A stretch of DNA of 64,000 nucleotides from Vallitalea pronyensis (lineage in GTDB: Bacteria > Bacillota > Clostridia > Lachnospirales > Vallitaleaceae). The number at the start of each line of letters is the position of its first letter. Position 1 is the stretch's first letter. Of the stretch, positions 2,057 to 54,058 are shown in pieces. Under the pieces are notes generated by a model. The model searched no databases, was not told the DNA's origin, and was given only the letters and a program-made list of their open reading frames with translations. The stretch spans positions 639,001 through 703,000 of the forward strand of contig NZ_CP058649.1 of the NCBI RefSeq assembly GCF_018141445.1, in the 5' to 3' direction. The position numbers and the translations under genes are program-made.

Positions 2057-4730
<2,674 letters not shown>

Positions 4731-8000: not shown

Positions 8001-8348
8001 ATAACTGATATTCGTCCCATTAATTCTAAAGTAGGTGTCATCACTACAACTATAATCATCATAGCTGTAGGCTCGTAGCTCTCCTTTTGCTTTGAATTTT
8101 ATTTCCCAATATGTATCATCACCATCATAGGTTCTTATGTCCAATATCTCTAAGGTGATACCTGTACACTCCGCAAATATTGTGCGACTGCCTTTTACAG
8201 CAGTTTTCTTCATGGCAGGTATGTTATAGGTATACTGGGTCTGTAGGGGTTCTCGACCTGTCCAAGTAATAGTACTACTGGCATACGAAGGTATATTGAT
8301 TGTTATAAAGATGATAAATAACATACCAATAAGAAGTTTATGCTTCAT
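5013..8348 (-). CDS. Large secreted protein, unknown function (1111 aa)
   Basis: An 1111-residue secreted protein. It has a clear signal peptide (MKHKLLIGMLFIIFITINIPSYA, cleavage near residue 24) and no further membrane segment. The rest is beta-rich and looks like a string of extracellular Ig/Cadherin/PKD-type domains: recurring patterns such as NSPNLTAELDRNYING, DRVKPTISTEDTF and TPPTVNILGTDPSFIYEGD begin successive units. No SLH, sortase motif or enzyme active site was found, so it is probably retained by binding to a partner. It is the last gene of a three-gene operon, 17 bases after the 1887-residue protein, whose own partner is SLH-anchored. A structural or adhesive role next to the pilus-like operon is an inference. 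Confidence 0.75.
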   Translation of the reverse strand: MKHKLLIGMLFIIFITINIPSYASSTITWTGREPLQTQYTYNIPAMKKTAVKGSRTIFAECTGITLEILDIRTYDGDDTYWEIKFKAKGELRAYSYDDYSCSDDTYFRINGTNISYDRFSGTSRGDGHTKYYDGVEKTTIVRKHDYTSQNNPMKLNVYVKCYVYTRGYYSHGDPKSAHVEHSNYIYLNNSPNLTAELDRNYINGNDSHSITVKGKVWDIEQDDITIEAELLNSSYQSIAKKSKFIAIPNATSGQSDDYTLTFNANELPTDTSGYMYVRIFDHYKGGTYKRFPIYIDRVKPTISTEDTFVLKGGNNLAVTTNEQSEVYLLKNIMTYNVYNDVLDAVSNDKGVKIGDGINKSTFTVPDVNGSYRLFAVDNGKNVSKPSSSIVQIDSSKPEIIDIVVEGNQLIFIYDDAIHSKAPTSTDYLLPLENVVASSVCILADEDNVDYEFIFDDYEGDEKYTDRFVFSAFDNSMFTNPNGIPDIIGQTASTKNGFHEVGQYTLEYQAQDTPVAASETRFDNYRKWGNKNLIQLLVHRTPIANLTINASLSNNQWVINGVNGTGYDLDHMDMANKGIQDDMYEWKRITDSQYTPGMIPSTLAAVEGGKDVEYIVKYKVQDIEGAWSEPVTFIISADPPIELDASLKTEDSTFSISSIPASENLLAYDVKTIFNKLHYVDMALYNSSNSLVTSLIRTHSNNTSYVSQNGNKFYWVNKAINIPETLADGTYKVIVKATDASNALKTDQEAFTVVVSTPINLLGSIDSKVTYDRTTTLTATTSIYVNDVKVTLYKGTSYERTSNLVYSKTVGNTKYWTLDYKEDRSYISEGNYVAEFRATTPNGNWEVDAHNFYFTRNTPPTVNILGTDPSFIYEGDKVYANIQVNDVDLDTLSVTVNLSKDGQPLTGEGYPKTYTQSPNITNNYELLEVLLMDHMTPGNYDLHVLVDDKNGGTATDTAIIAPSPLSITGQVDHHPQWNDNRIKYNLAMTGKDDDPRTYDTYWAGERFMLSAQTTAIHADSRLTVSKVSVHIIEPARISPQPYQMNLSPLSSSTNRWSGELWNNTMIYRWGRPSPEDLTFQFTVYYSNGTVKQHNVTITIDDRDAYYKYHRKW

Positions 8349-11300: not shown

Positions 11301-14029
11301 CCTTGGGTGGTTTCATATTGAATGGTTGATGAACGATAATCATTGTTATAATAATCCGTGAAGTCCCCTCCATTTGATATGGACTGTTGATATGAACCAC
11401 TCTCTAAATAGTACGACAAGTAAATGTTTCTTGCATAAGTATAATAATTCCTAACTTTGTGTTGTTGACCTGTTTTCTTGGTATCGGTCACCATATAAAT
11501 ATTGAAGTCTTTATTGTTAGCGAATGCTTCGGCTTTCAGTAAATTAAGTTCTGTTTGAAGGGTGATTAAATCCATATCTTTATAGTCCGTAACGACCACT
11601 ATATCATAGACTTCATCTTTGGATACATCCACTTTTACAGCTGTAACAGGGGCTATATTGTCTATTTCGGCAATGCATTCCTCACCTGGCTTGTCTGCGG
11701 TATCATCTGTTAAGATGTAAGAGGTATCCACAAATTCTAAAAGCCTGTTATCGTGTTCTTCGTAGACCTTTAGTTCAAACTTGTATCGACCTACATGAGT
11801 ACTTTCTACGGTTACATCGGTGAGATTGCCTGTGTCTACGGTATCAGCGAAGGTAAATAAATTAGAGTAAGCTGTACCAGAATCTACCCAACTTGTTCCG
11901 TTGTGATAATACCAAGTATCATCTGAAAAAATACCGTCGTTATCGCTGTCAAATGCGTAGAACCAAGCCCTTTTAGTAATGCTGTCACCATCAGGACTTG
12001 TTGATGCATCAAAGGCTTTTACAGTGGCTTTTTTATCGTTGTCCTTGTCCCGATAGACTTTTTTTATCAGTGTAAAATCTGCTATAGGCGGTGTATCGGC
12101 TAGAATTGTCCGCTCAATGGTTCTTGTGTTGGAATAACCAAGTGTATTGGTTACAGTAAGGGCTATTTCTACCTTACCAGACTTTTTAGACGTAAAAGCA
12201 ATCTCTTTGCTGTTAAGTTTTTTGGTATAAATATCATCACTTGTAAGGCTGTCAAGGGGTGTGATAGTCCAGTTGGTAAGTGTCCAATCAATGGGATAAG
12301 TTTTACTTACAGCCTTGGAGTTGGAACTATCTAAGACAACGGTTTGTCCTACTTTGTAATCCCCGTCTTCTGAAATAATGGCTAGGGGCTTTGGTGGACA
12401 CACTTCTATTTGCGTACTGGCACTATCGCTTTTACCTCCACTATCCGTTGCTTTGGCGGTAACGGTAAAGATACCGCTTTGCATAAATTTAGAGGTATTA
12501 TCGCCATTATGTACGGCACTACTTAACACCAAGGATGATGGTTTACTAAGGGTTGGTGTTAATGGTCCATCTTCTTTATCCGTTGCATCCACACGAAGGG
12601 TAAAGCTGTCACCCTGCATAACGATACTTGGTGCAGATAGGGTAACATCTGGTGACCAGTTGTGGGGTGGACTGGCTTTCTTAATCACTTTAACGTCCTT
12701 CATGGTAGTATCCGTCTTACCGTTACTATCTTCAACGGTTAAGGCTACCGTAACGGTCTTAGGTTCATCATAGGTTAATGTAATGCTTTTATTCCCTTCT
12801 TCCTTGGGTAAGGGTTCGCTCTCAACTTCCCAAGAATAATTAACTAGGGTTGCACCCTTTGGTGCGATCGATCCCGAACCATCGGCAAGGATTTCTTCGT
12901 CTACAAGTACTTGATCGGGTACGGATAGGATGGCTAAAGGGTCACCATCTGGGATAGGGGCTTTTTTAATCAGCTCGGCACTGGTCGAACCAGAACCATA
13001 CCCACGATAATGATAGAGATACCTTACTTCAACCTCACATGTATAATCTTTTGTAACACTGTCATCAAGGTCACTATCCCCATCTTCAATATCATTTGGT
13101 ACATAATCAAAAGTAAAATCTGCTGTTCCGCTCAAAGATGTGAGGTTTGTGATTGTTTTGGTTAGCTTCTTTTTACTTGTTTGTTCCTCTATTGTTATGT
13201 TCATAAATCTAATGTTACTTGGGTTATTTAAGTATTCCGTATAAATGCTTGTAATATTTTTAATATCAGCTTTTGCATGAATACGGACTTGTGCTGAACC
13301 TTCACCTTTTGACATATCAATGGTATGGTCATCAATGGATGACATTACTTCAAGGTCAAGGTCAATATTGAATGAAGCTTTATCAATTAAAGGTGGATAA
13401 TCATATGTCTTATTATAGTAATTAGGTAAATCTTTATTCTTTGTCGTATCGCCCCACGAAATACCATGGGGTAACCCGTTGATAATACCCGACGCATCAT
13501 TTGTAAAGAGCTGTACACGTCGATTTCCTAAAGAGGTGTTGTCATGACTATCCATAAGGATTTGTGTATCATTCTCCCAACCCATAATGGCATTGGTATC
13601 GACGGTTTTTTTGTCGTATGCCATAGGGACGCCATAGATGGTAATGATCTGTATGGCATCAATTTCAATTTTACCGCCCCTCATTTTATCTTCGTCAGGT
13701 AAATTTGTCCTATCGAAGATATCTTCCAGTTTGATGTCAACCCTATTTTGACTGACACTTTCAAAAGTATAAGGCATTGTACCAACGGCGGGTTCGCTTT
13801 TCCCTTCAGGAGTAAACTTCAATTTCCACCCAATGGTTTTGTATTTATATTTTGCATTACTTGCGGTGGCTGAGACATAAAAACGAAATACGGGTATTCC
13901 ATTTTTATTATCTACTATATCTGCGTTACTTCCTCCTGTATCAACAGCAAATACATTAGTAAATGAGTTCATTGTTAAACATAATATGATAAATAAACAT
14001 AAAATTCTATTACTACTAGCTTTTAACAT
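8366..14029 (-). CDS. Giant secreted protein with PKD-type domains and RCC1-like beta-propeller (1887 aa)
   Basis: Signal peptide at residues 1-29. Residues about 30-365 form an N-terminal region of unknown type. From about 365 to 790 there are four or so PKD/Ig-like domains, with starts such as GDPLAILSVPDQVLVDEEILADGSGS, SPDVTLSAPSIVMQGDSFTL and PPIADFTLIKK plus an acidic DSDNDGIFSDD stretch that may bind calcium. A Rossmann-like strand pattern (YDIVVVTDYKDMDLITLQTEL, near 800-850) hints at a vWA-like domain. From about 1240 to 1830 the protein repeats short 'DGT' blades (NDGTIKAYGD, HDGNYIMIG, NGDLWRTD, KDGTLSNYGD) as in RCC1-like propellers. Ten bases separate it from the SLH gene upstream. 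Function is unknown; adhesion or matrix binding is inferred. Confidence 0.78.
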   Translation of the reverse strand: MLKASSNRILCLFIILCLTMNSFTNVFAVDTGGSNADIVDNKNGIPVFRFYVSATASNAKYKYKTIGWKLKFTPEGKSEPAVGTMPYTFESVSQNRVDIKLEDIFDRTNLPDEDKMRGGKIEIDAIQIITIYGVPMAYDKKTVDTNAIMGWENDTQILMDSHDNTSLGNRRVQLFTNDASGIINGLPHGISWGDTTKNKDLPNYYNKTYDYPPLIDKASFNIDLDLEVMSSIDDHTIDMSKGEGSAQVRIHAKADIKNITSIYTEYLNNPSNIRFMNITIEEQTSKKKLTKTITNLTSLSGTADFTFDYVPNDIEDGDSDLDDSVTKDYTCEVEVRYLYHYRGYGSGSTSAELIKKAPIPDGDPLAILSVPDQVLVDEEILADGSGSIAPKGATLVNYSWEVESEPLPKEEGNKSITLTYDEPKTVTVALTVEDSNGKTDTTMKDVKVIKKASPPHNWSPDVTLSAPSIVMQGDSFTLRVDATDKEDGPLTPTLSKPSSLVLSSAVHNGDNTSKFMQSGIFTVTAKATDSGGKSDSASTQIEVCPPKPLAIISEDGDYKVGQTVVLDSSNSKAVSKTYPIDWTLTNWTITPLDSLTSDDIYTKKLNSKEIAFTSKKSGKVEIALTVTNTLGYSNTRTIERTILADTPPIADFTLIKKVYRDKDNDKKATVKAFDASTSPDGDSITKRAWFYAFDSDNDGIFSDDTWYYHNGTSWVDSGTAYSNLFTFADTVDTGNLTDVTVESTHVGRYKFELKVYEEHDNRLLEFVDTSYILTDDTADKPGEECIAEIDNIAPVTAVKVDVSKDEVYDIVVVTDYKDMDLITLQTELNLLKAEAFANNKDFNIYMVTDTKKTGQQHKVRNYYTYARNIYLSYYLESGSYQQSISNGGDFTDYYNNDYRSSTIQYETTQGYTTPTIPFQKGNTVSWERGSFYRSDSNMYGGYEQSGVEFRFFNPDNKIATLSTRQITTNGWYQGIGFCQIWGNIRIGGESVNVTNHWTRTSSFSPHDFYYDIQGMDFSKVEDVPYTKDSKKVFLYFTKGIGLNYENEAYNYSASSIDKDLMDYLIYNDFETYVIAPDETTLDKKFDSNNHSSDISSQYATLRELAHCSTTRGKYIIGDVSSDLWKDQLMLTVRKHVVMPNNVSIDNNVMRLTFDDDFTEGQELDLTLLQQEFKISDLVGNTLELPKMEYDIKVEDKGIKPLSSLYFSNPLPQHLLKDDIQIIKRTKELIIYKKDGQLNVSITDESLATTKFTADGVRAIKDMDYTNVKDIHTISNLLVMLYNDGTIKAYGDVYITSYISYKIDTTKWRNIKQLISLNNLLIGIKHDGNYIMIGTYRQYSSTYHRNNYEEITSDTYYEGHVVAQSIMLLYRSGHNGKTYHRLFGNHITFYPYRIEELYHTTNYEVICNTLDYTIYVQLNGKYYRVVSNYDNHLESLDELNGMSIKRLIPVGYRGFVAVKSDDTLYFSKAVKDTYATAGGYYYEVWTKMNSLGKLKNVVQIENGLWLQGTNGEFFFGDRVADDTYTARYLKIDDISHIITNNLGMIVIMKDGKRYDMNQYVNAYKVPNNAIYYFEDSRGVAYMTSNGYFNSSLVPSYNSHSWYNWRKISSYFDKVINLGFRVMIGIKNGRASVYKEDNSDYNYLNNATYYSGIKDILISNGIPLLIRENNYINPIYKNSLSQNLNGYSEFRNNNISKFAACSKYLYGIDTNGDLWRTDPSGLILLATDVEDMFPLDTTLVYLKKDGTLSNYGDGKQYETYEGMLIAPDFITLQLKGTTQKACITTSGVQLDYIGGFSDMVETIQPLQSTQFHIGNHLDDGVAYKYKVFSDDKTSVEEILVNQLMDDTWTDVQDLDIVPVQDGYYIGVVEVNAENRAIRYSYMKAKAENL

Positions 14030-14039
14030 GATTCACACC

Positions 14040-15404
14040 TCATTGTCCTTCTACTACTTTTAACTCACTTAGATAAGTATATGAATATAAGGTATAGCCA
14101 TAATATTTCCAATCACGTGGAGCATTTGACAGTGGACGATACATTGTTACATCTACATCTATATAGTACCATTTACTAAATTGCAGGTTAGGTATTTCAA
14201 AATTCATCTCTTCAACAATATTATCTGGGTTGTCATGACTATTGAATTTAAAATACATACGTCCTCTAATGGTTTTTCCTCTATTCGTACCGTAAACCAT
14301 GCGATAACTATCCGTAACGAAAATCATTTCTTGTTCAATTTTCCATTGTTCAATATCATTAACCCATTGAGTAATAAAATCTTTTGGTGCATACGTTTCA
14401 CCACGATACCCTACCCAATCATAAAACCACCAAAGTAGTTTAGTGATTTCCTTTTCTTTATCAAGATTTATGTAATTTTTACCATAAAAACTTTCAATAA
14501 ATTCTTTTGTATCTTGCGCCAATATACCGTACTTCTGTCTTTCAGATTCTTGGTCTGTATACATCCTGTTATTTTCTTCAAAATCATTAGAATCCATATT
14601 TTCTATAATAGGATACCCCTTCAATATCTCCATAATCTTCTCCGTACTATAAACAACCTTCCCGTTCTCAATCTTATGAATATACTCTATAGGGGTAGGT
14701 TCTTCTCCTGAACCACCATTATTATTACTGCCATCCCCTGACCCACTACCATCTTGACCATTATCATCTGTAGATGGTTCTGTAGGCTCAAATGGCTTCC
14801 TTTCCTTCTGATCTATCATCCGATGAATAATGGTACTTGCCTGAGCTCTAGTAGATTCATCTTGTGGTCTAAACGTATTGTCTGGCATACCTGTAATAAT
14901 TCCAAAGGCATATGCATCCTTTACATCCTCTACATACGTATAGGAAATAGATGAAAAATCATTGACACAGTTTTCTACTAGATTCCTGGTATCTGCTTTG
15001 GCTTCATCCTTAATCGCTTTGGCTATGATACTGGACATTTCTTCTCTTGTGATGGGTTCGGTATAAGAAGCAAATTGGTTTTCTTCAATAATACCAAGTT
15101 CCATAGCCTTATCAATAAACGGCTGCGCCCAATAAGGTGATCCATTTTCAATAGACTTATACCCAAGAGCAACGATGGTCATCTTAATAAATGCGTCCAC
15201 ATTCACGCTAAAATTAGGTTTAAAGGACCCATCAGGAAATCCATTGATAACGCCCATGTCCACAAGTTCTTGAATGTTGGGGATAGCCCAATGTTCTTCA
15301 GGAATATCTGTGAATAACTTTTTCTTACCCTCAGTTGCATAGGTGTATGTTGCATTCAAGGTTAGTGCTGCTAATAGTAGGATTGCTATTACTTTCTTTT
15401 TCAT
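14040..15404 (-). CDS. SLH-domain cell-surface protein
   Basis: A 454-residue secreted protein, first gene of the minus-strand operon. After a signal peptide (cleavage near residue 23) there are three canonical SLH motifs in residues about 28-195: FTDIPEEHWAIPNIQELVDMGVINGFPDGSF, a second around YWAQPFIDKAMELGII and a third with VKDAYAFGIITGMPDNTFRP. SLH triplets bind pyruvylated wall polymers. A Ser/Gly/Asn-rich linker (about 207-230) leads to a C-terminal domain of about 220 residues with no recognised family. It likely anchors the two giant proteins encoded downstream or a pilus-related structure. The ATG is preceded by AAAGGACG. Compared with the SLH-like proteins at 45099-61467, the SLH motifs here are the classic kind. 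Confidence 0.85.
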   Translation of the reverse strand: MKKKVIAILLLAALTLNATYTYATEGKKKLFTDIPEEHWAIPNIQELVDMGVINGFPDGSFKPNFSVNVDAFIKMTIVALGYKSIENGSPYWAQPFIDKAMELGIIEENQFASYTEPITREEMSSIIAKAIKDEAKADTRNLVENCVNDFSSISYTYVEDVKDAYAFGIITGMPDNTFRPQDESTRAQASTIIHRMIDQKERKPFEPTEPSTDDNGQDGSGSGDGSNNNGGSGEEPTPIEYIHKIENGKVVYSTEKIMEILKGYPIIENMDSNDFEENNRMYTDQESERQKYGILAQDTKEFIESFYGKNYINLDKEKEITKLLWWFYDWVGYRGETYAPKDFITQWVNDIEQWKIEQEMIFVTDSYRMVYGTNRGKTIRGRMYFKFNSHDNPDNIVEEMNFEIPNLQFSKWYYIDVDVTMYRPLSNAPRDWKYYGYTLYSYTYLSELKVVEGQ

Positions 15405-15941
15405 GATGAATACGTCCTTTCTCGTTTCTTTTGTGTTTTTTTGTGCTTTGTCTGAGTTGTGACAAAATCATTTAATAATATATTGCGCTATCAAGGTATG
15501 TCATTGTGGTACAATTTCCATTGTATATAGGTGACCATGATTGAATAATAAAATTCTATAAAGAAGGTGTAAATAAAATAATTACCAATATATGCGATAT
15601 TTCATCAATATTAGACACGTATTAATGTTATTTTATTATAATCATAGTATTTTTTCAATCAAATATTCTTAATTTTAGCATTAAATTTAATTAAAAACAT
15701 ACGAAGGTAACATTAATAATTGACAGTAAAGTTTAAAAATCATCAAAAACGTATTGCCAAACGCCATAATATCATATATAATACGATTATGTGTCAGAAA
15801 AATACAAAGAAATCAAATAAAATAAATAAATAAGTATATGTTTATGTTAGATAAGGATGGATTATAGTATTATCAACCAATAAACAGTCATATAGAAGAT
15901 ATTATCTATATACTTACTCATCATAAGGAGAGACACGTTTT
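15405..15941. other. AT-rich divergent promoter region
   Basis: A 537-base gap between the minus-strand giant-protein operon and the plus-strand pilus-like operon. It is very AT-rich. The only site I can support well is the plus-strand promoter at 15754-15782. No open frame or structured RNA was found; a minus-strand promoter must lie here but no box pair is convincing. Confidence 0.6.
15754..15782 (+). promoter_or_regulatory. Promoter for the Tad-like operon
   Basis: TTGCCA (15754-15759), 17-base spacer and perfect TATAAT (15777-15782). The kinase start codon lies about 160 bases downstream, leaving a long untranslated leader. Confidence 0.65.
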
Positions 15942-17510
15942 ATGGTAGGAAGTACACACTTTGGTAAATATCGGGTATTAGAAGAAATCGGAAGAGGCGG
16001 CATGAGTAGGGTATTTTTAGCTGAAAATGTAAAGCTTGGCAATAAGTGGGCAATAAAACGTATAGAGAAGAAGGATAGTGTCATTAATTTACTAGCTGAA
16101 CCCAGTATGTTGAAAGATCTGAATCATGCATTAATTCCACGTATTGTAGATATTGAAGAAGATGAGGACTACCTATATATTATTGAGGAGTATGTGGAAG
16201 GTGTAACATTAAAAGAATATCGACAACAGCATTCGACAATTGATGAGCCAACCATTATTCATTTTGGAAAATTATTGTGTCAAGTCTTAGACTATTTACA
16301 TAGTCGAAAGCCATACCCCATTATTTATCGTGATATGAAACCAGGTAATATTATGATTACAGAAAACCAGAGTATTAAGCTAGTGGATTTTGGTATAGCT
16401 AGAGAATATAAGAATCATGGTGATACGGATACTGTTCTTATAGGGACTCATGGGTACGCAGCTCCAGAGCAATATAATTCTGCTTGGCAAAGTGACGCTA
16501 GAACAGATATCTATAGTCTAGGGGTTACACTTTATTACATGGCGACAAATAGAAATCTATCCAAGCCGCCCTATAAGATATTACCACTTAGAGAATTTGG
16601 TCTGTACTCACAAGGTTTAGAGAGAGTTATCAGTAAGTGTACCAATTTTAATCCAGATGACCGCTATCAATCCATTGAAGAATTAGAACAAGATTTAGAC
16701 GCATTAGCTCAACCTAAAGAAGATAAGAAACAAACGCTTTATCAGGGTATCAAACCTCAAACAATAGGGGTTATATCGTTGACACCAAGAGCAGGTTCTA
16801 CTTTTCTGTCCGTTAATCTGGCTAGTGCTTTAGCCCATAGAAACATCTTAGTTTCTCTAATTGAATTTCCGTATAATGAACCGTATATATATGATCTTAT
16901 AGGAGTATCCAATTATACTACGATTTCTTATTATCCTGTTTTACAAGAGATCAATAACAATAACATGATCTATCGAGATGAAATAACTGTAATAGACGAT
17001 ATTATGTATTTGATTCATGATCCAACAAGAGAACCTATTGATCATTGGGACGATGATAAATCCACCAAATTATTGTATGCAGCAAAAGATTCTCTTATTT
17101 CCATTGTGGACATTGGTTATCATTATAGCCTTATAGAACCAATCTTACATGAATTTGACTTAATATTTGTGATGTATCATGCTATGCCTCCTGAAATTAT
17201 GGCTAATTACAGGCTATTTGAAAAAATAATGGCCTATGGTCGTAAGCGGAATAACGTTCGTTTTATTCTCAATAACGACAATGAAGGTATACACAAGAAA
17301 GAACTGCATCAGTATCTGGGGATAAAACCGGATTTATCCATACCAAGATTACCAGAAGAATGGATATACGGTTCAGCCTATAAGAAGAAAGTGCCTTATC
17401 AATTATCCAAGTATAGAGGGACATTTGATACATTATTTGATCCAATTTACAAAGAAATTATGCCGAAAGAATTATGGAAAAAGAAGAAGAGAAAACGAAA
17501 ATTATTCTAA
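15942..17510 (+). CDS. Ser/Thr protein kinase fused to a CpaE/MinD-like domain
   Basis: 522 residues, two domains. Residues about 8-255 are a Hanks-type kinase: glycine loop GRGGMSRV (17-24), invariant Lys39 in WAIK, catalytic loop YRDMKPGN with Asp131 (Tyr replaces the usual His of HRD), DFG at 149-151 and APE at 174-176. All catalytic residues are present, so it should be active. Residues about 272-510 resemble a MinD/CpaE ATPase fold (IGVISLTPRAGSTFLSVNLASAL), but the deviant Walker A has lost its lysines, so nucleotide hydrolysis is doubtful. There is no membrane segment and no PASTA domain, unlike the usual PknB/PrkC sensors. It heads the pilus-like operon behind AAGGAGAG. A role in controlling or positioning the secretion ATPase by phosphorylation is inferred. 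Confidence 0.88.
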   Translation: MVGSTHFGKYRVLEEIGRGGMSRVFLAENVKLGNKWAIKRIEKKDSVINLLAEPSMLKDLNHALIPRIVDIEEDEDYLYIIEEYVEGVTLKEYRQQHSTIDEPTIIHFGKLLCQVLDYLHSRKPYPIIYRDMKPGNIMITENQSIKLVDFGIAREYKNHGDTDTVLIGTHGYAAPEQYNSAWQSDARTDIYSLGVTLYYMATNRNLSKPPYKILPLREFGLYSQGLERVISKCTNFNPDDRYQSIEELEQDLDALAQPKEDKKQTLYQGIKPQTIGVISLTPRAGSTFLSVNLASALAHRNILVSLIEFPYNEPYIYDLIGVSNYTTISYYPVLQEINNNNMIYRDEITVIDDIMYLIHDPTREPIDHWDDDKSTKLLYAAKDSLISIVDIGYHYSLIEPILHEFDLIFVMYHAMPPEIMANYRLFEKIMAYGRKRNNVRFILNNDNEGIHKKELHQYLGIKPDLSIPRLPEEWIYGSAYKKKVPYQLSKYRGTFDTLFDPIYKEIMPKELWKKKKRKRKLF

Positions 17511-17536
17511 ATTAACAGGTCAAGGAGCGAGCTCAT

Positions 17537-18211
17537 ATGAAGAACATCGTAAAAGGCATCGTGGGATTATTGCTAATTGCTATATCTGTAGGACTTATCT
17601 TCTATTGGGAAATATATGGGCGTGAAAGTATCCTATACGATGATGTGTTAGTCTTGACACAGGATGTAAAAAAAAGTGATGTCATTACAGAAGATATGGT
17701 GGCTTATGATAAAAGAGAAGGTCATACGATTATTGATGGAGCAATTGTGAATTTAAGCGATATTATAGGCAAAGCTGCTAATTGTTATATCCCAGAAGGC
17801 GCACAATTGGTTCAAGAGTATTTTGAAGATACCGCATTGGTATTAAAAGAAGGTCAGTATATATTCCGATTACCTAATGAATGGTTAAGAGCATATCCTA
17901 ATTCCCTTAGACGAGGCGATACCATTTATTTTCATGAAATTAGTAAGGATATAATGACTCCAGTGTCTGGGGATGGGATAGATCATGTGGAACAATATAG
18001 ACCTCTGATTAAGGATGAGGCAATAGCAAGTGTAACAGTTGCTTACACGAAAGATAGCGCCAACCGAGAGGTTATTACATTAAGTGAAGAAGAACGATTT
18101 AATGGTTCCAGTAAAATAAATGAAATTGAAGTCATTGTAGACGTTGAAACCGTTAATACATTAAGAAAAAGTGTTGAAGAAGGGAAAGTTTTTATCCTTC
18201 TGTATCAATAA
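17537..18211 (+). CDS. SAF-domain protein, CpaB/RcpC-like
   Basis: A 224-residue protein with one N-terminal membrane segment (residues about 5-25) and then a SAF domain (DVLVLTQDVKKSDVITEDMVAYDKR ... IIGKAANCYIPEGAQL), the signature of Flp pilus assembly protein CpaB/RcpC. In diderm Tad systems CpaB lies in the periplasm near the secretin; in Gram-positive Tad-like loci it is thought to sit outside the membrane as part of the assembly platform. It is shorter than the usual 250-300 residues. Ribosome site AAGGAGCG precedes the ATG, 26 bases after the kinase gene. Confidence 0.78.
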   Translation: MKNIVKGIVGLLLIAISVGLIFYWEIYGRESILYDDVLVLTQDVKKSDVITEDMVAYDKREGHTIIDGAIVNLSDIIGKAANCYIPEGAQLVQEYFEDTALVLKEGQYIFRLPNEWLRAYPNSLRRGDTIYFHEISKDIMTPVSGDGIDHVEQYRPLIKDEAIASVTVAYTKDSANREVITLSEEERFNGSSKINEIEVIVDVETVNTLRKSVEEGKVFILLYQ

Positions 18212-18262
18212 AGATAGGTATACGTACACATCATTAAGTAAGCGGCTAGGTGGTGAACAATC

Positions 18263-19399
18263 ATGGAGACAACATATCAAGTATATCTTATTTCGGAAAA
18301 TGAAAACTTGAAAAGACAATTACAAGGTGTGGTATATTTTGATAAGGTTATGATGGATAGACAGTTTCAACAGGTACAAGCGGACATTACCATCATAGAT
18401 GATCAGATATGTTCCATTAATGATTTACTTAAGATCAGAGAAACGATAGAGTCGTCATACATTTTTTACCGTGTTCAAAAAAAGAATTTTAAGTTTTCCA
18501 CAAAAAGTGTTCTAGATACCAATGATATCCACATGTTGCAGCCTTACATGACCGATGAAAATGTTGTGGAATATATATGTTCTGAGGTCATAGAACGTTA
18601 CAAATATACTGTGAGTAAAAACATAATGACCTTCTTTGGAAGTGACACAAAAGTAGGAACAACTCAGATAGCTCAATCTGTAGCAGAGAAGATTGTAAGT
18701 AAGTCCCATGCAAAAGTATGTTTATTATATTTAGACGGAGAAGCGGGTACAGATTATATACAAGTGAATTGCCGACATAATATTGATACCATCAAAATAA
18801 AGCTTGTATCTGGGCTTGCAACAGTTGAAGAAATCTTTGATGTATCCGAAAAAATTAAAGATAATTTATATGTAATAGAAGGTAGTACATCCATTCTATA
18901 CCGAAAAGAATATCAGCCTGAACATATTATGCACCTATTAAGCGTCTTATCCGTTGCCTGTGATTTAGTTATTGTAGATGCAGGGAGTTATATGGATAGG
19001 GCCATGCCTATTGCCGCATTAACGGCTACCCATCATCGCTATCTTGTAACGACACAACAAGCCGTCAGTCTTAGAAGGTATTTATCTAAGAAGCCCATTC
19101 TCGAACGGTTATCCTTAGACGATTTCCAAGTGATTGTCAATAAGCATATTGCAGATGGGTCCTTGATGACGACCTATGATATTGCAAAGACCTATGGTCA
19201 TCCGCTATTAGGTAAAATAGAATTTTCCAAATATGCATTACAGGCAGAAAATGATAAAAAAGCACTTATTCATTATAAGGATAGAATCTTTAATAAAGAT
19301 ATGGATACCATTGTTGATACGATCATGGGTCAACTAAATATTAAAGGAAACAATACATCCAAAAAAAGAAAGTGGTTTGGTTTACAGGGGGTGGGATAA
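18263..19399 (+). CDS. CpaE/TadZ-like pilus ATPase
   Basis: A 378-residue protein of the MinD/ParA superfamily. Residues about 1-115 resemble a receiver-like domain without obvious phosphorylation site, as in CpaE. From about 120 the ATPase fold starts with MTFFGSDTKVGTTQIAQSVAEKI, a deviant Walker A of the CpaE kind (KxGTT, lacking the second Lys); LVIVDAGSY (about 233-241) fits the Walker B/switch region. TadZ/CpaE proteins place the Tad apparatus at the cell membrane. Its stop codon TAA is followed at once by the GTG of the next gene, so the two are translationally coupled. It probably partners the kinase-fused paralogous domain encoded at the operon head. Confidence 0.82.
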   Translation: METTYQVYLISENENLKRQLQGVVYFDKVMMDRQFQQVQADITIIDDQICSINDLLKIRETIESSYIFYRVQKKNFKFSTKSVLDTNDIHMLQPYMTDENVVEYICSEVIERYKYTVSKNIMTFFGSDTKVGTTQIAQSVAEKIVSKSHAKVCLLYLDGEAGTDYIQVNCRHNIDTIKIKLVSGLATVEEIFDVSEKIKDNLYVIEGSTSILYRKEYQPEHIMHLLSVLSVACDLVIVDAGSYMDRAMPIAALTATHHRYLVTTQQAVSLRRYLSKKPILERLSLDDFQVIVNKHIADGSLMTTYDIAKTYGHPLLGKIEFSKYALQAENDKKALIHYKDRIFNKDMDTIVDTIMGQLNIKGNNTSKKRKWFGLQGVG

Positions 19400-20887
19400 G
19401 TGATAGATAGCGGCTTATCAAATGCTAATAAAGAAGCTTTTTATAAAAACTATCCTTTGCCCGAATTTGACCTTAGTCAATATATTTATGCCCAAACAGG
19501 TGAAAACACAAAACAGGTGGTTCATATAACCCGGGATGAGTTAACAAGATTTTATGCTCTATGTGATACGATTTTTAAATACTTTCATAGCCAATGGGAT
19601 AAAGAAGGTTTAGAAACAAGTACCTTACTAAGACAAAAAAATGCCATACTAGGAAAAACCTTGGAGGTTAACTACTTTAAAGATAATATCGAAGATTACT
19701 TAAAAAGAAACAATAAATTATCAGAATGGTATCCCACATGGTATAAGGATATTGTTGACGCCATCTACCAAGAATGCTGGGGGCTTGGCGGTATATCCCA
19801 ATGGAAACATGATGAGGCATATACATATTCTCAATCTGCCAAAATAATTGGTGAACGTATCTATTTTATGGAAGACGGTAAAATGACTTTAAAGCCCCAA
19901 CGCATAAGTGATGCCAGACGAAAACAACTCATCAAAGCCCTCTTGTTAAATGAAAAGCATATACATTATGACGGAAAACATGCTGAAGTAGCCATGCATG
20001 ATGGTACTCGAATTACGATTTATGGTGAAAAACTTGTAAAAGAAAATCTAGAAGTGATTATTTTTAGAAAATATATCATACCCAAACTTTCATTTGAAGA
20101 ACAGGCAAAGCGTCATACCATACCAGAAGAACTGATACCGGTCTTAAAGGATATGGTCAAAGTGGGTTACAATATGTTATTTACAGGTGCCGTTAGAACA
20201 GGTAAAACAACATTTCTTGAAACATGGCAAATGTATGAAGATACGTCACTGGAAGGGGTTATGATTGAAACAGGGGCAGAAATACCTGCACATAAGCTGC
20301 AACCTCATGCACCAATTATGCAGTTGATAGCTGATGATGAACAATTAGGGAGTATCATTAAACCGCTCATGCGTTCCGATGCAGATTATATCATATCTGC
20401 CGAAGCAAGAGATGGACGGGCATTGAATGTATCCATGCGAGCAGCCAATAAAGGTACAAGACGTTGTAAAACAACCTATCATACTACAGAACCTATGGAT
20501 ATCTGCTATGACATTGCAGATGAGATTGTGAAATTCTATGGGGGAGATTTATACAATACCATCTATAAAGTAGCAAAATCATTTCACTATGTCTTTCATT
20601 TCGTCCAGCTTGCGGATAAGAGCAAAAAGCGTTTAAAAGGTATTTATGAAATACGTTTTAAACGTCACGAACATTGTATTAGTATGCACCCTATATGTAA
20701 GTATCTCTATCATGAGGATACTTGGCAGTTTAAGTATGATATAGGTGAGGATAAAATGGAGGTTGGTTTTGAAGAAGACCGAACTGCATTTGAAAACTTT
20801 GAAAGAGGTTTAAAAACATTGGAGAAAAAATTTCCCTATGATGACTATCAAGTTTATAAGCCAAAATATGACGGGTTAAAAAGGTGA
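19400..20887 (+). CDS. TadA/CpaF-like secretion ATPase
   Basis: A 495-residue member of the type II/IV secretion ATPase (VirB11/TadA) family that powers pilus assembly. Walker A is GAVRTGKT (residues 263-270); the Asp/Glu boxes follow at MIETGAEIPAHKLQ and the Walker B/ATPase region at SDADYIISAEARDGRALNVSMRAANKGT. The following His box reads TTYHTTEPMD where most CpaF proteins have a GSLSTVHAN-type sequence, so this is a divergent member. Residues 1-230 form the N-terminal domain. The start is GTG at 19400, directly after the previous stop and behind CAGGGGGTGGG. Only four bases separate it from the TadB gene. Confidence 0.88.
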   Translation: MIDSGLSNANKEAFYKNYPLPEFDLSQYIYAQTGENTKQVVHITRDELTRFYALCDTIFKYFHSQWDKEGLETSTLLRQKNAILGKTLEVNYFKDNIEDYLKRNNKLSEWYPTWYKDIVDAIYQECWGLGGISQWKHDEAYTYSQSAKIIGERIYFMEDGKMTLKPQRISDARRKQLIKALLLNEKHIHYDGKHAEVAMHDGTRITIYGEKLVKENLEVIIFRKYIIPKLSFEEQAKRHTIPEELIPVLKDMVKVGYNMLFTGAVRTGKTTFLETWQMYEDTSLEGVMIETGAEIPAHKLQPHAPIMQLIADDEQLGSIIKPLMRSDADYIISAEARDGRALNVSMRAANKGTRRCKTTYHTTEPMDICYDIADEIVKFYGGDLYNTIYKVAKSFHYVFHFVQLADKSKKRLKGIYEIRFKRHEHCISMHPICKYLYHEDTWQFKYDIGEDKMEVGFEEDRTAFENFERGLKTLEKKFPYDDYQVYKPKYDGLKR

Positions 20888-20891
20888 AGCC

Positions 20892-21833
20892 ATGATTGAA
20901 ACAGTAACCACGCTTATAACAATCTTACTTTATTGCTTAGCAGTATATGGTATATGGCTAATTTTTTCACGGGATATCTTATACATGTTGAAAGTCATGC
21001 GACCTCGTAAGACTTTTAGAAAAAAGAAAAGAACATCCTCAAGTGTATATAAACATATAAAAAGATTACTACAAGTTGTCTATGGTGACATCGATGACAA
21101 AAAAGTATCCACTTTCTTTGTTCTAAGTATCTTGTTATTTATGATTACTTTCTTAGTTGTATATCAGAGAACGACGGTAACCCGAAGTTTAGGTTTTGCA
21201 TCCATATTTGGTTTTCTGCCTTACTTTTATCTAAGAATGCAGCTTAAGCAAATCCGTGTCGACGGTAGCTACGAAGCCGACATATTGATTAATGAATTCC
21301 TCAATCAATACAAGCTCAATAACCATAATGTCTATGATACCATTGATGCAACCATTCATAAGATAAAAGAAGCACCCATGATGAAGCGTCAGCTTTTTCT
21401 CTTGTCACTAAAACTAAAAGAATACCGTAAAACAGAAGAGTTAGAAGACATAATAGATGATTTTATCTATGCCATAGACACGGAATGGATTGTGCTATTA
21501 GCCAACAATATGCTAATCAGTATTGAAGACCACGTGGACATTACATCAGGACTTGAGGATATACAAGCTGAGATAAAACAAGCCATAGCGGATAAAGAGA
21601 GAGAAAAAAGGATTAACTTAGAGAGCATTACCATTGTAAAATATTTGACACCAGGGCTCTATATCCTTTCCATTATATTAGCTAAGAAAGTTTTTAATAT
21701 TTCATTTAAAGAATTTATGCATTATCAATTAAACACGCCTACAGGATTTGACTACTTTATGGTCATTGTGTTATTAACGATATTTAATCACAGTATTCTC
21801 GTATATCTTAAGAAGCAAAAATTCGATATTTAA
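20892..21833 (+). CDS. TadB-like inner membrane platform protein
   Basis: A 313-residue membrane protein with a segment at about 5-27, a pair at about 75-115 and two more near 253-272 and 287-305, leaving a cytoplasmic helical domain of about 130 residues between them. This is the topology of TadB/T2SSF platform proteins, which connect the ATPase to the pilus. Sequence motifs are weak, so the assignment rests mainly on topology and position after the TadA ATPase and before a TadC-like gene. Confidence 0.72.
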   Translation: MIETVTTLITILLYCLAVYGIWLIFSRDILYMLKVMRPRKTFRKKKRTSSSVYKHIKRLLQVVYGDIDDKKVSTFFVLSILLFMITFLVVYQRTTVTRSLGFASIFGFLPYFYLRMQLKQIRVDGSYEADILINEFLNQYKLNNHNVYDTIDATIHKIKEAPMMKRQLFLLSLKLKEYRKTEELEDIIDDFIYAIDTEWIVLLANNMLISIEDHVDITSGLEDIQAEIKQAIADKEREKRINLESITIVKYLTPGLYILSIILAKKVFNISFKEFMHYQLNTPTGFDYFMVIVLLTIFNHSILVYLKKQKFDI

Positions 21834-21856
21834 AAAGAAAAGCCAGGTGTATATTC

Positions 21857-22723
21857 ATGAAAACCAATCTAATCATCTTGTTTTATCTACTGATTATGAT
21901 TTTACTTACAAGCGCTTATCAATTATTCAGCAGTATTGGCAGAGGGCGTCATAAGCAATATGCGTTTCGTTACACGACTATGAAGCGAAAAAAAGATACT
22001 TCTCATTATGAAATCATGCATAAGTATTTTTTTGACGCCGGTTGGCAGATTAATATGCAACAATACAACCGAATACGTTATATCCTCTTTGCAGCATTAA
22101 CACTCATCATAGGTTATACCTTTTATGAAAGTTCCAGGTTGCGGGTTATGGTTGCCTTATTGCTATCTATTTATTGGATATCAATGCCTGTATTGAAGTG
22201 GGGTAACAAGGATAGTCCCCTTGTCATGTTTTTAAAGTTTTTGCAAAAGATCTACAACAAGAAAAAAGATGTGGAAATCTATCGGATACTGATACAACTG
22301 AAAAACATTGCTGTAACCCAGCAAGAAAAACCCTATAGTGCAGACTATGTCATTAACCAGCTCATTAAATTTGCTGATACCACAAAAAATGGATTCATAC
22401 AATTTTTAATGTACTATAATACAGGAAGAGAAGAAGAGGCTTATGAAGGATTTTTAAGGCATATTCCTACTAAAATGGGAAGTGAAGTAGCTGCTATTCT
22501 ATTAAAGTTGGATAAGCTTCAACCCATGGAAATGGTTGAGCAGATTAACATGGTAAAAGAACGTATCCGCGAGAATCATATTACACAAAAACATAAGAAG
22601 CAAAATCAAATATCAGATTTAATTTATTTGCCAATAATTGCACCAGTTTTCATTCTGTTTTTAAACTTCATTATGATTTGTGTTTGGATACCACAGATTG
22701 AGAGTATTAATCAAATATTTTAA
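21857..22723 (+). CDS. TadC-like membrane platform protein
   Basis: A 288-residue membrane protein: one segment at residues about 4-22, a pair at about 72-115 and a C-terminal segment at about 258-280 with the pattern DLIYLPIIAPVFILFLNFIMICVW. The cytoplasmic domain between them is helical. It pairs with the TadB-like protein as the second platform subunit. The ATG at 21857 follows AAAAGCCAGGTG. Assignment is from topology and operon position. Confidence 0.7.
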   Translation: MKTNLIILFYLLIMILLTSAYQLFSSIGRGRHKQYAFRYTTMKRKKDTSHYEIMHKYFFDAGWQINMQQYNRIRYILFAALTLIIGYTFYESSRLRVMVALLLSIYWISMPVLKWGNKDSPLVMFLKFLQKIYNKKKDVEIYRILIQLKNIAVTQQEKPYSADYVINQLIKFADTTKNGFIQFLMYYNTGREEEAYEGFLRHIPTKMGSEVAAILLKLDKLQPMEMVEQINMVKERIRENHITQKHKKQNQISDLIYLPIIAPVFILFLNFIMICVWIPQIESINQIF

Positions 22724-22764
22724 CAAATATACAAATTAAAAACTATTTAAAAGGAGTTGTAATC

Positions 22765-22947
22765 ATGAAAGATTTTTTGATTTTAGTAGCTAAAATAGCA
22801 CTAGGACTGTTAATTGGGTTTTCAATTATTTTTGGAGGTGCTAGCTCTTTAAGAGGAAAGGCTGACAACTACGGTACTGGTATGACAAATGCATTGGATA
22901 CTATCAATTTTGAATCAACAAACTTAACGACGACAACTAGTCCTTAG
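22765..22947 (+). CDS. Small pilin-like membrane protein (60 aa)
   Basis: A 60-residue protein with excellent ribosome site AAAAGGAGTTG. It starts MKDFLILVAKIALGLLIGFSIIFGG, a hydrophobic helix right after the start, then a polar tail rich in Thr/Ser/Asn. Size and position (directly after TadC) are those of the Flp major pilin. It lacks the usual leader with a G/xxxxE-Y prepilin cleavage site, so either it is a pilin made without a leader or a small accessory membrane peptide. Shares its first residues with the next two products (MKDF). Confidence 0.72.
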   Translation: MKDFLILVAKIALGLLIGFSIIFGGASSLRGKADNYGTGMTNALDTINFESTNLTTTTSP

Positions 22948-22974
22948 TATTAATTTAGAAAGTGTGATGATACA

Positions 22975-23121
22975 ATGAAAGATTTTTTAATATTATGTGC
23001 TAAAATAGCACTGGGCCTTTTTATTGTAAGCATGCTCATTCTTGGTACTACGAATGATACTTTATACTCCAAGACAAAGAATATTATGCAACAAAGCTTA
23101 GAGTATCAAAAGAATTATTAA
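22975..23121 (+). CDS. Second small pilin-like membrane protein (48 aa)
   Basis: A 48-residue frame easily missed because of its size. It begins MKDFLILCAKIALGLFIVSM, 14 of its first 16 residues identical to the 60-residue protein just upstream, followed by a short polar tail ending QSLEYQKNY. The ATG at 22975 lies 27 bases after the previous stop, behind GAAAGTGTGATGAT. The strong N-terminal conservation with divergent tails marks it as a real tandem paralog, probably a minor pilin. Confidence 0.75.
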   Translation: MKDFLILCAKIALGLFIVSMLILGTTNDTLYSKTKNIMQQSLEYQKNY

Positions 23122-23238
23122 ATATACCATTGAACCAAATAGTAATAAAGTGAACTAAACGTATAATGACATTAGACATACAAGTCTTTATTACTTATAT
23201 GTGTTCTTTGAGAAAAGAATTAAAAGGATATGGTGTTC

Positions 23239-23655
23239 ATGAAGGACTTTATTGTGCTAATGGCAGTGCTTATTTTGTTATTACCCTTTCCCCTACAATA
23301 CGCATTAGAACAATACAACCATCACCAAAAAGCAGAAATCCAATCCTATGTCTATTCTGCAAAAGAAAAAGCTAGGCAGGAAGGTTATTTTACTACCGCT
23401 ATTAAAAAGGAATTAGTGGATAAGATTATTGCTAATTTTCATATTAATGAAAGTGAAATCCTCATTACAACAGATAACACAAGAAAATACAGAACCAACC
23501 AGTTCAATGAAGCAGAGCTTATATACTATCGCATTGAAGTGCCTATCAAAGGTATTATAGCTGCTCCAGCTATATGGGGTATAAAAGATGCGGATAATAA
23601 AGCAACCTATATTATTGAAGGCCATGCAACAAGTGAGGCGATTCCCTTACCATGA
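23239..23655 (+). CDS. TadE-like pseudopilin
   Basis: 138 residues from the ATG at 23239: MKDFIVLMAVLILLLPFPLQYALEQYNHH, one N-terminal membrane helix and an extracellular domain of about 110 residues, typical of TadE/TadF minor pseudopilins. The earlier ATG at 23230 is less likely because AAAAGGA ends only two bases before it; with the inner start the MKDF opening is shared with the two small pilin-like proteins. The last four bases overlap the next gene (ATGA-type overlap), so the two are coupled. Confidence 0.72.
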   Translation: MKDFIVLMAVLILLLPFPLQYALEQYNHHQKAEIQSYVYSAKEKARQEGYFTTAIKKELVDKIIANFHINESEILITTDNTRKYRTNQFNEAELIYYRIEVPIKGIIAAPAIWGIKDADNKATYIIEGHATSEAIPLP

Positions 23656-24143
23656 AACCCTTTCTATTTACGTTAGGTATGTTACTGCTTTATGTGGTTT
23701 TCTTAACCTATCAGAGTGATCATAATCTATATGTAAGGCAGCTAGAACAATTGAAACAAGTAGCAGATGAATGTTCATCGTCAGCAGGGATGTATTACGA
23801 TGAAGCACTTTTTTCAGAAGGGAAAACCATTTATAATCAGATAGAATGTGAAAAAGTCATTGACTATATCATCAAGGCTAATCTTCGTTTGGATAATAAT
23901 TTTGTCCCCATTTCGGACAGTTACTGGACGGATAAAGTCACCTATCGTGTTACTTATCTGGATCACAGTAACACGTCCTTTCCCTATAACTATATCGATC
24001 CAAATGGTAGATTTACCAAGACCGTAGCAGAGCCAACCATCATCGTTATTATTGATGCAGGTAAGCCGCCCTACCGCTTAACATTTCTGAAGCCAAAGCA
24101 TGCCATACGAACATCAGCCTATGAATATTGGCATAGCTATTAA
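23652..24143 (+). CDS. TadE/TadG-like minor pseudopilin
   Basis: 163 residues with an N-terminal membrane helix (MKPFLFTLGMLLLYVVFLTYQS) followed by a helix with Gln/Glu/Lys and an extracellular domain of about 120 residues with two Cys (C41 and C66 region) that could form a disulfide. It overlaps the previous gene by four bases and is the last gene of the pilus-like operon. No family was recognised with certainty; a minor pilin is the best guess from topology and place. Confidence 0.65.
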   Translation: MKPFLFTLGMLLLYVVFLTYQSDHNLYVRQLEQLKQVADECSSSAGMYYDEALFSEGKTIYNQIECEKVIDYIIKANLRLDNNFVPISDSYWTDKVTYRVTYLDHSNTSFPYNYIDPNGRFTKTVAEPTIIVIIDAGKPPYRLTFLKPKHAIRTSAYEYWHSY

Positions 24144-27737: not shown

Positions 27738-28784
27738 ATGAAAACAATAATTAGTAATCAATTGTATCAACTATTCGAGCACTATAACTATCAACAACTA
27801 CCAACAGATAGCGAAAAAGTAAAGATGTATGGAACATTTCACGGTGGGTGCTTATACCTCATTAATGTGATCCAGTTAGATGATGATTATGCTTATCATA
27901 AAGAACGATTTATGCATTATAAAGAGATTACCAAGAAGCAATTTGGACATGTGGATGCCAGTAAAATTATCTTACTTAATCTCCTGATTACAAACAACCC
28001 AATGGCCATCTATGAAGATGTGAATTATATGCCTAATTTTGATGACGAACTGATTGATATTCAATGGCTTATTCATGAAGATAAACGACAACTCATTATT
28101 CCTAACGAACAAGTGAAACATGCTTTAGGACTAGAAAAAACAATACCAAAGCTCTTTAACAATCAAGAAGATATAACACATAAAAATACGAAGATTAAAA
28201 AGGATCATCAAGTACCTTACTTAACCTATGCTTTAATACTCACCAATATGGTTTTCTTCCTTGTCCTTGAACTGTCAGGAGGCAGTACAAACCTTAATAC
28301 GCTCATACGCTTTGGTGCCATTAATTCCATTACCTTCTTTCGTGGTAACGAGTACTATAAACTTATTACATCCATGTTCTTGCATATTGGTGGCGCTCAT
28401 TTACTCTATAACACCTTTGGGCTTTTTATATTTGGTTCACGACTGGAATTGTATATGAAGCCTTGGCAATTTCTCACCACGTATTTAGGTGCAGGTATTT
28501 TGGGTGGTTTACTCAGTGTAGGGATTCATCATATGTCCGATCAATTGGTGGTAGCTGCTGGTGCATCTGGTGCCATATACGGTATCATGGGTGCGTTATT
28601 GGTCTACTCATGGGTCTATCGACGACAATTTGATGGTTTAAGCACCTATACAATTCTTCTCATGTTAGTGATCGGTATTGCCATGGGGGCGGTGACACCA
28701 GGCGTAGGGAACCTGGCTCACTTAGGTGGTTTTATTGGTGGAGCCCTGATTACCTATGTACTCACACGGCTAAAAGTTGCATAA
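27738..28784 (+). CDS. Rhomboid-family intramembrane serine protease
   Basis: 348 residues. Residues about 1-150 form a soluble cytoplasmic domain with no recognised motif. From about 160 there are six or seven membrane segments. The catalytic Ser sits in AAGASGAIYGIMG (GxSG, near residue 281) and the catalytic His in NLAHLGGFIGGA (near 332); the GAINSITFFRGNEYYKLITSMFLHIGGAHLLYN loop with its His and Asn is also typical. Such enzymes cut membrane proteins inside or near the bilayer. The Bacillus homologue GluP (YqgP) has the same N-terminal extension and links to membrane quality control. It stands alone behind its own promoter. Confidence 0.93.
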   Translation: MKTIISNQLYQLFEHYNYQQLPTDSEKVKMYGTFHGGCLYLINVIQLDDDYAYHKERFMHYKEITKKQFGHVDASKIILLNLLITNNPMAIYEDVNYMPNFDDELIDIQWLIHEDKRQLIIPNEQVKHALGLEKTIPKLFNNQEDITHKNTKIKKDHQVPYLTYALILTNMVFFLVLELSGGSTNLNTLIRFGAINSITFFRGNEYYKLITSMFLHIGGAHLLYNTFGLFIFGSRLELYMKPWQFLTTYLGAGILGGLLSVGIHHMSDQLVVAAGASGAIYGIMGALLVYSWVYRRQFDGLSTYTILLMLVIGIAMGAVTPGVGNLAHLGGFIGGALITYVLTRLKVA

Positions 28785-49328: not shown

Positions 49329-49330
49329 TA

Positions 49331-49391
49331 AACGAGCAAGTTAACTTGTGCGTTTTGGATAAGAAGTGGGATTTCCCACTTCTTATTTTTT
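49331..49391 (+). terminator. Terminator of the 1409-aa S-layer gene
   Basis: First a palindrome CAAGTTAACTTG (49337-49348) flanked by AACG/CGTT, then a strong stem AAGAAGTGGG (49361-49370)/CCCACTTCTT (49375-49384) followed by ATTTTTTT. Confidence 0.85.
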
Positions 49392-49565
49392 TGTGTGTGC
49401 CCAGCATGGGCACAATCTAATCGGAAAAGAAGATATATTTAGGAGAACGATTAATCAACAATTAATTTTAATGATACTTGCTAAATTTATTTTAATTGTA
49501 ATATTATACCAAGATAAATATGATATAATGATTAGTAGTTAAGTATAATTAAGGGGGAATGAAAT

Positions 49566-51818: not shown

Positions 51819-51829
51819 GAGTAGTAAAG

Positions 51830-53980: not shown

Positions 53981-54058
53981 TGTATAAAGTATAGAGTGAA
54001 CTATGCTGTTCCACTTTGTTGATAACTATTAAAATACTAAAAATTAGGAGATGATAAG

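Follow-up and report, generated by a model that had tools for sequence, protein, structure and literature searches.

A conserved operon of Vallitalea pronyensis proposed to encode a Tad-type type IV filament machine with leaderless pilin-like subunits

Prepilin processing is regarded as obligatory, in that a cleaved leader is considered a requirement of the type IV pilins described so far, and Tad loci normally encode the prepilin peptidase TadV together with a leader-bearing Flp pilin. Can a machine of this kind be built from subunits that never carry a leader? The question is raised by a ten-gene operon at positions 15942–24143 of a 64,000-nucleotide stretch of the marine anaerobe Vallitalea pronyensis (the window, to which all coordinates refer; positions 639,001 to 703,000 of contig NZ_CP058649.1). 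The window lies on a host genome of 6.33 Mb in two contigs (6.25 Mb and the 78.6-kb contig C2). We consider it rather likely that the operon encodes a single-membrane (Gram-positive) Tad-type type IV filament machine, the subunits of which are made without a prepilin leader.

The last four genes of the operon encode two tiny pilin-like proteins and two proteins in the position of TadE. Tiny protein 1 (22765–22947, + strand; 60 amino acids, MKDFLILVAKIALG...) starts with MKDF or MKDL in all six Vallitalea species, is preceded by the Shine-Dalgarno sequence AAAAGGAG and by upstream codons that are not conserved, and enters its transmembrane (TM) segment at residue 3. Tiny protein 2 (22975–23121, +; 48 amino acids, MKDFLILCAKIALG...) has orthologues in 6/6 species and is homologous to tiny protein 1 and to the tiny proteins of f50 and G285. 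The mechanical start of the gene for TadE-position protein 1 was 23230. We corrected it to 23239 (23239–23655, +; 138 amino acids, MKDF start in 6/6 species), because AAAAGGA lies too near the first ATG and is well spaced for the second, and because five of five orthologues begin with MKDF. This protein matched its plasmid counterparts with E=2e-15. TadE/F-position protein 2 (23652–24143, +; 163 amino acids, MKPF..., 6/6 species) matched its plasmid counterparts with E=1e-19 and is homologous to TadE-position protein 1 (E=9e-6).

All four proteins begin right at the TM segment, and the in-frame codons upstream of them are few or unconserved in the six species and hold the Shine-Dalgarno sequence. 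Across these species, both tiny proteins and TadE-position protein 1 start with MKDF or MKDL (from a TTG start codon in two orthologues) and TadE-position protein 2 with MKPF. Nearly all relatives that we read agreed: the tiny and TadE-position proteins were leaderless likewise in 11 Bacillales plasmid loci and in f50, G285, G681, G646 and G545. When the start of the TM segment was determined by a hydropathy rule, it fell at residue 1–4 in the leaderless proteins measured versus 16–27 in leader-bearing pilins (the canonical Flp of G681, G646, G545, G580 and G474, and the pilin of host contig C2). G681 and G646 carry leader-bearing Flp and leaderless pilins within one locus. The apparent exception in plasmid locus L120 reflects a longest-open reading frame (ORF) start, with an internal MTKVLAF start present, and the first tiny ORF of P. 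sonchi (L135) has an annotated extension ahead of an internal MKKDSISAG start. Mis-called pilin starts were rejected as an explanation on the upstream codons in the six species and the 11 plasmid loci. Thus the operon encodes neither an Flp pilin with a class III leader and a G/XXXXEY cleavage site nor, more generally, a prepilin leader for a peptidase to cleave.

The earlier note on this DNA had described ten co-directional genes with small gaps, headed by a kinase gene and lacking a prepilin peptidase, and had proposed to look for the peptidase elsewhere in the genome. All ten ORFs were present on the + strand, nearly gapless (intergenic gaps of 26, 51, 0, 4, 23, 41, 27, 117 and -4 bases). 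No prepilin peptidase (A24)/TadV gene was found within the operon; three were found elsewhere in the host genome, the nearest on the chromosome ~450 kb off. The lack of a peptidase in the operon fits the finding that the tiny pilins and TadE-position proteins start at the TM helix. The genomes G285 and G468 each have a single prepilin peptidase gene, set among unrelated genes.

The remaining machine genes lie upstream of the tiny pilin genes. A SAF protein that resembles CpaB/RcpC and has a single TM segment at its N-terminus (17537–18211, +; Pfam SAF 5.5e-5) matched NCBIfam pilus_cpaB at 0.0074, under that model's cut-off, and plasmid SAF proteins with E=7e-36. A TadZ/CpaE-like P-loop protein with the atypical Walker A motif TKVGTTQ (18263–19399, +; NCBIfam minD_arch 6e-9) matched plasmid CpaE with E=1e-47, and plasmid CpaE matched canonical CpaE at 8e-12. 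It is followed by a CpaF/TadA-like secretion ATPase of 495 amino acids (19400–20887, +; Walker A GAVRTGKTT; Pfam T2SSE 3.4e-8), for which a profile search returned the structures of GspE2, FlaI, VirB11 and CpaF in the PDB. In a CpaF tree, the ATPases of the window, f26, f50 and the plasmids formed a clade apart from canonical CpaF with a support of 100/100. Further, only six genomes in a 398-genome sample of the phylum scored above 430 bits, with a gap between 435 and the next best at 177.

The two platform proteins were more divergent. The TadB-like (T2SSF-type) membrane protein (20892–21833, +) and the TadC-like membrane protein (21857–22723, +) matched plasmid TadB and TadC with E=5e-41 and E=3e-29, respectively. 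In profile-profile comparisons against canonical TadB and TadC, the values before relatives were added were E=0.009 and 1e-4. Combined profiles gave E=6e-7 (probability 92) and E=1e-5, and the TadB-like and TadC-like profiles matched one another with E=1e-9. Plasmid TadB homologues matched Pfam T2SSF at 8e-5 and 4e-4, under the gathering threshold, and the annotation of one reads type II secretion system F. Searched by themselves against Pfam, NCBIfam and PHROGs, the TadB, TadC, tiny and TadE-position proteins matched no family meaningfully. Judged by these comparisons, the type IV filament/Tad group genuinely, if distantly, includes the ATPase, both platform proteins, the SAF protein and the proteins resembling TadZ/CpaE. 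The set comprises the Tad features TadA/CpaF ATPase, TadB plus TadC platform, TadZ/CpaE and RcpC/CpaB-type SAF protein, and the superfamily feature of an ATPase, an F-domain platform and single-helix pilins encoded together, the pilins being recognised by anatomy alone. Because of the homologies of the ATPase, TadB/TadC and CpaE, we place the machine within the superfamily of type IV filaments, with Tad as its closest kin, although its ATPase forms its own clade. It is not a strict member of the Tad pilus family, since leader and TadV are missing. The assignment in the earlier note to a divergent Gram-positive Tad-like machine, with TadB and TadC in the Tad family, is thus well supported.

The order of all ten genes was identical in 6/6 Vallitalea genomes searched, at ~50–78% identity; the scattering of the genes, which the earlier note had named as a refutation, was not seen. 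The ratio of nonsynonymous to synonymous substitution rates (dN/dS) was 0.02–0.10 for every gene but that of tiny protein 1 (0.41), which retained 73% identity in a genome pair where the other operon genes shared 93–98%. By this conservation, the operon is under purifying selection and not a product of chance. In other genera of Vallitaleaceae, matches reached 21–25% identity at best and were mostly canonical CpaF of ~400 amino acids. The operon is preceded by an AT-rich divergent intergenic region (15405–15941), presumed from its position to be the promoter region in both directions; promoter-like matches in a scan of this region did not rise above shuffled controls.

A scan with narrow peptide patterns found the machine in Vallitalea alone, and a later genome search reached distant members. 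When the window ATPase was used as a query, 28 plasmid records were retrieved, nearly all from Bacillales. In the plasmid loci that we read (L118–L120 and L131–L139), the order is gene 1, SAF, CpaE, ATPase, TadB, TadC, tiny ORFs and two TadE-position proteins, followed mostly by a wall-binding or S-layer homology (SLH) protein and a giant secreted protein; the loci of A. acidocaldarius, Metabacillus and Aeromonas are interrupted or less complete. Several plasmid loci adjoin coupling-protein genes (in L118, Pfam TraG-D_C and T4SS-DNA_transf), and the chromosomal f50 loci are flanked on either side by TrbL (1.6e-78) and a VirB4-type ATPase. Among the window genes scanned, none was recognised as encoding VirB4, a coupling protein, a relaxase or a type IV secretion system (T4SS) channel. 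An f50-type VirB4 was absent from the Vallitalea chromosomes G000 and G016–G018 and from G285, and in the host was found on contig C2 only. By these comparisons, the window operon belongs as one branch to a wider family of leaderless loci, which is also carried on Bacillales plasmids, mostly beside conjugation genes, and usually adjoins a wall-binding protein, often of SLH type, and a giant secreted protein. Because the relatives travel with such genes and the chromosome has no VirB4 of the f50 type, the window locus appears to be a stand-alone version.

Two features of the plasmid loci stood apart. In two Planococcus plasmids (L118, 18424–19350; L134, 18186–19085), TadE-position protein 2 is fused to an M23 peptidoglycan peptidase, which would give a pseudopilin-like helix bearing a wall hydrolase. 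The family is otherwise one of Bacillota, but its SAF-CpaE-ATPase-TadB block is also present in a record labelled as plasmid pNe-1 of Aeromonas sp. Ne-1 (L139), through either horizontal transfer or mislabelling or contamination of the record.

Canonical Tad operons also accompany the family. One lies directly beside the leaderless operon or within ~25 kb of it in G646 (L170), G681 (L172/L180) and G545/G737 (L173/L174/L181), and more loosely in G580 (L182/L171). This adjacency in several unrelated lineages suggests that the canonical and leaderless machines work together.

The first gene of the operon (15942–17510, +) encodes a Hanks-type Ser/Thr kinase (residues ~8–260; Pfam Pkinase 1.5e-46) joined to a degenerate TadZ/CpaE-like domain (~262–522) that has lost its Walker A motif (LTPRAGSTF). 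The kinase has the VAIK lysine, the HRD aspartate (the motif reads YRD), DFG and APE; and K39, E53, D131, K133, N136, DFG 149–151 and APE 174–176 were invariant in the six species. The C-terminal part matched, over its full length, the C-terminal half of plasmid gene-1 proteins (E=2e-32) and plasmid CpaE (E=1e-7). At the position of the Vallitalea kinase, the plasmid gene-1 proteins have an N-terminus that reads as receiver-like, with no family match. The kinase thus appears to replace a receiver-like domain on a TadZ-like protein. Most members of the wider family have no kinase, and the only kinase-type locus found outside Vallitalea was that of G681, outside the class, the full-length fusion of which is 36% identical over ~550 residues.

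In G681, a canonical Tad operon (Flp, peptidase, DUF6382-FHA and PP2C) is followed in a co-directional run by the kinase fusion and the leaderless operon. In Vallitalea, the DUF6382-FHA gene, plus PP2C in four of the six genomes, is in or near the canonical Tad locus, the regulatory genes of which lie ~475 kb from the kinase in the host; in G018, PP2C and canonical CpaF are on different contigs. We dismissed the PknB-PP2C pair upstream in L080 as housekeeping genes. A circuit joining two Tad machines would be the simplest reading of this distribution of kinase, FHA and PP2C.

Divergent from the operon lies a cassette of surface protein genes, all on the - strand: an SLH protein (14040–15404; Pfam SLH 1.5e-22), a giant secreted PKD-type protein of 1887 amino acids that is a putative adhesin (8366–14029; Pfam PKD 1.2e-4, just under the gathering threshold) and a second giant secreted protein of 1111 amino acids (5013–8348; E 1.7e-58 to an f50 giant). 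The N-termini of the giants are ordinary hydrophobic signal-like segments. On the plasmid-like contig C2, two SLH/giant cassettes stand in tandem, and one of them matches the three window proteins in the same order (75, 63 and 56% identity). The Tad-like locus that they adjoin (L042, L088, L097) is a different system: its pilin bears a leader, and a gene for a prepilin peptidase and a VirB4-type ATPase are present too. From Clostridia to Bacilli, leaderless loci have cassette homologues as neighbours, namely those of f50 and of plasmids from Cytobacillus and Paenibacillus; SLH homologues adjoin those of f50 and Cytobacillus, and giant 1 matched the giant beside the Cytobacillus locus with E~1e-27. 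At the divergent site, G016 has the same SLH/giant type and G014 and G017 have another, and G015 (L094, ~2792–3196) retains short giant-protein fragments only, as if its cassette were lost or undergoing replacement. Because of these differing types and fragments and the homologues at other loci, the cassette looks like an exchangeable surface partner, probably an adhesive one.

We propose the following course for the machine. The four MKDF/MKPF proteins would insert into the membrane with the N-terminus inside and keep that N-terminus unprocessed. The ATPase and platform would pull the tiny pilins into a short filament, for which no prepilin peptidase would be needed, and the two TadE-position proteins might cap or prime its tip. 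The wall-binding SLH protein would act as an anchor, and the giant PKD proteins are probably adhesins at or around the fibre. The pseudo-TadZ domain would dock the kinase on the machine, parts of which it would phosphorylate to set activity; this phosphorylation may be read by FHA and reversed by PP2C, both supplied in Vallitalea by the second, canonical Tad locus, such that the kinase would switch or coordinate the two machines. The chromosomal form may be a stand-alone contact or adhesion version of the module found in conjugation gene clusters. More broadly, we hold it an even chance that a Bacillota branch, chromosomal and plasmid-borne, builds fibres from leaderless pilins that never meet a peptidase, and that in Vallitalea and one other lineage the kinase-pseudo-TadZ protein ties the leaderless machine to a canonical one.

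Filament formation, peptidase independence and phospho-control are what we infer from gene content, and several results weigh against them. The absence of a peptidase from the whole genome failed as proof of independence: each of the 12 genomes examined carries at least one. The evidence is therefore the missing substrates and not a missing peptidase, and the absent leader is the sole argument for independence. That the tiny and TadE-position proteins act as pilins is suggested by position, size, hydrophobicity and an AlphaFold model built from four close sequences. In this model (predicted local distance difference test, pLDDT, 78.5), TadE-position protein 1 has an N-terminal helix of ~47 residues and a three-stranded sheet, a predicted pilin-like layout. 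Searches of the model with Foldseek and VIA-align returned no trustworthy relative and no clear pilin match; EpsJ pseudopilin (Z 4.1) and TCP pilin (Z 3.0) were rejected as fold relatives because both ranked among unrelated rows. A TadB model from four close sequences reached a pLDDT of 44 and was discarded. The SLH/giant pair was not seen beside the operons of G285 and G468. Further, a strict kinase-PP2C pairing was ruled out, since G015 and G016 keep the kinase without a Tad-linked PP2C. The proposal in the earlier note that assembly is under Ser/Thr phosphorylation is accordingly plausible but indirect: the intact kinase residues, the TadZ-like fusion and the G681 locus with PP2C, FHA and canonical Tad speak for it, and the two Vallitalea genomes without a Tad-linked PP2C and the mostly kinase-free family speak against it. 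That note had recognised the Tad-like machine but was silent on the leaderless pilins, the plasmid-linked family and the SLH/giant genes.

Instead of a pilus, the product might be a pseudopilus or secretion complex that is short and spans the envelope, akin to a type II secretion system or T4SS, that exports or mounts the giants or moves plasmid DNA, with the tiny proteins as a collar or short piston. Such a complex would suit the relatives on plasmids and in f50 that accompany coupling-protein, TrbL, VirB4, M23 and FtsK-type genes, the giant secreted proteins adjoining the operon, and tiny pilins of only 48–60 residues. However, Sec export suffices for the giants because of their signal-like N-termini, and Caulobacter Tad fibres form from a mature pilin of 45 residues (PMC11067988). 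Further, none of the genes next to the operon was recognised as a T4SS channel gene, and an f50-type VirB4 was absent from the chromosome. We regard this complex as possible but doubtful. An ordinary Tad pilus, in which pilin starts were misread or a leader-bearing Flp encoded elsewhere is processed by one of the three peptidases, draws on the known fact that one prepilin peptidase can serve several systems (PMC6668835). It conflicts with the few, unconserved, Shine-Dalgarno-holding codons ahead of MKDF in the six species and likewise in the 11 plasmid loci, with the tiny ORFs that occupy the pilin position in most leaderless loci read, and with the canonical Flp beside the leaderless operons of G681 and G646, which do carry leaders. 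This makes it very unlikely.

A further alternative, compatible with the machine proposed here, concerns the kinase only: a general Hanks kinase fused to gene 1 might sense envelope stress and have its targets elsewhere, unrelated to assembly. The receiver-like domain in its place in most family members and the loose pairing with PP2C would agree with this. However, the fusion is kept as gene 1 of this operon both in Vallitalea and in a lineage outside the class, the catalytic residues are invariant in Vallitalea, the gene has a dN/dS of 0.08, and on plasmids the part of gene 1 other than the kinase consistently adjoins the machine. We consider an unrelated kinase unlikely.

The operon resembles Tad/Flp (type IVb) loci in its CpaF/TadA ATPase, TadB/TadC, TadZ/CpaE, CpaB/RcpC-like SAF protein, tiny single-helix pilin, two TadE/F-position proteins and similar gene order. 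It differs in that no subunit bears a leader, TadV is not in the locus, the ~495-residue ATPase falls in its own clade, TadB/TadC are weakly alike, and a kinase-fused pseudo-TadZ gene and SLH/giant genes are added. Signal-less tad-like loci ('no Flp_2'), distant from other tad loci and lacking any protein with a prepilin motif, were reported in C. kluyveri, C. cellulolyticum, C. bolteae and D. hafniense (Imam et al., 2011; PMC3244431). Set against our operon by their description only, these loci contain tadV, and the accessible part of the paper does not describe leaderless tiny pilins. On linear plasmids of Cutibacterium acnes (PMC5696575), tad genes lie beside VirB4, FtsK and TcpC-like conjugation genes and TadE2–4 have no signal peptide. 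However, this system is actinobacterial, its TadE1 pilin has a cleavage-like motif, and a kinase, SLH protein and giant cassette do not appear in the accessible part of that source. Type VII secretion system (T7SS) clusters of Bacillota combine a kinase, a PP2C/PPM phosphatase and DUF6382-FHA, some adjoining Tad genes (PMC11217815), but the kinases there are T7SS parts and no T7SS gene was recognised beside our operon. The Kil Tad pilus of Myxococcus likewise pairs a Tad machine with interchangeable surface or tip modules; its tips are minor pilins, in which processing sites are predicted and which become functional only once processed (PMC12075869), whereas here the variable cassette consists of SLH and giant Sec-type proteins. 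We found no paper describing the leaderless family, the SLH/giant cassettes or the kinase-TadZ fusion in a literature search that fell short of most subscription journals. Pilin finders such as PilFind use the N-terminal prepilin signal (PMC3244431) and would therefore miss this family.

Should the leaderless proteins polymerise without processing, type IV filament assembly would not depend on the peptidase step, the real role of which could then be tested directly, and the leaderless branch would break a rule used to define the superfamily. The family further links Tad-type machines to conjugation gene sets on Bacillales plasmids, and its kinase version would offer a defined phospho-signalling route to a pilus.

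Elsewhere in the window, positions 45099–56344 hold a cluster of large SLH and Big_5 Ig-like surface proteins (1409, 750 and 761 amino acids, with an ORF of 716 amino acids between); as far as checked, this cluster has no relation to the pilus operon. A gene for a rhomboid-family membrane protease (27738–28784) lies ~3.6 kb downstream of the operon and is present in the conserved downstream block of other Vallitalea as well.

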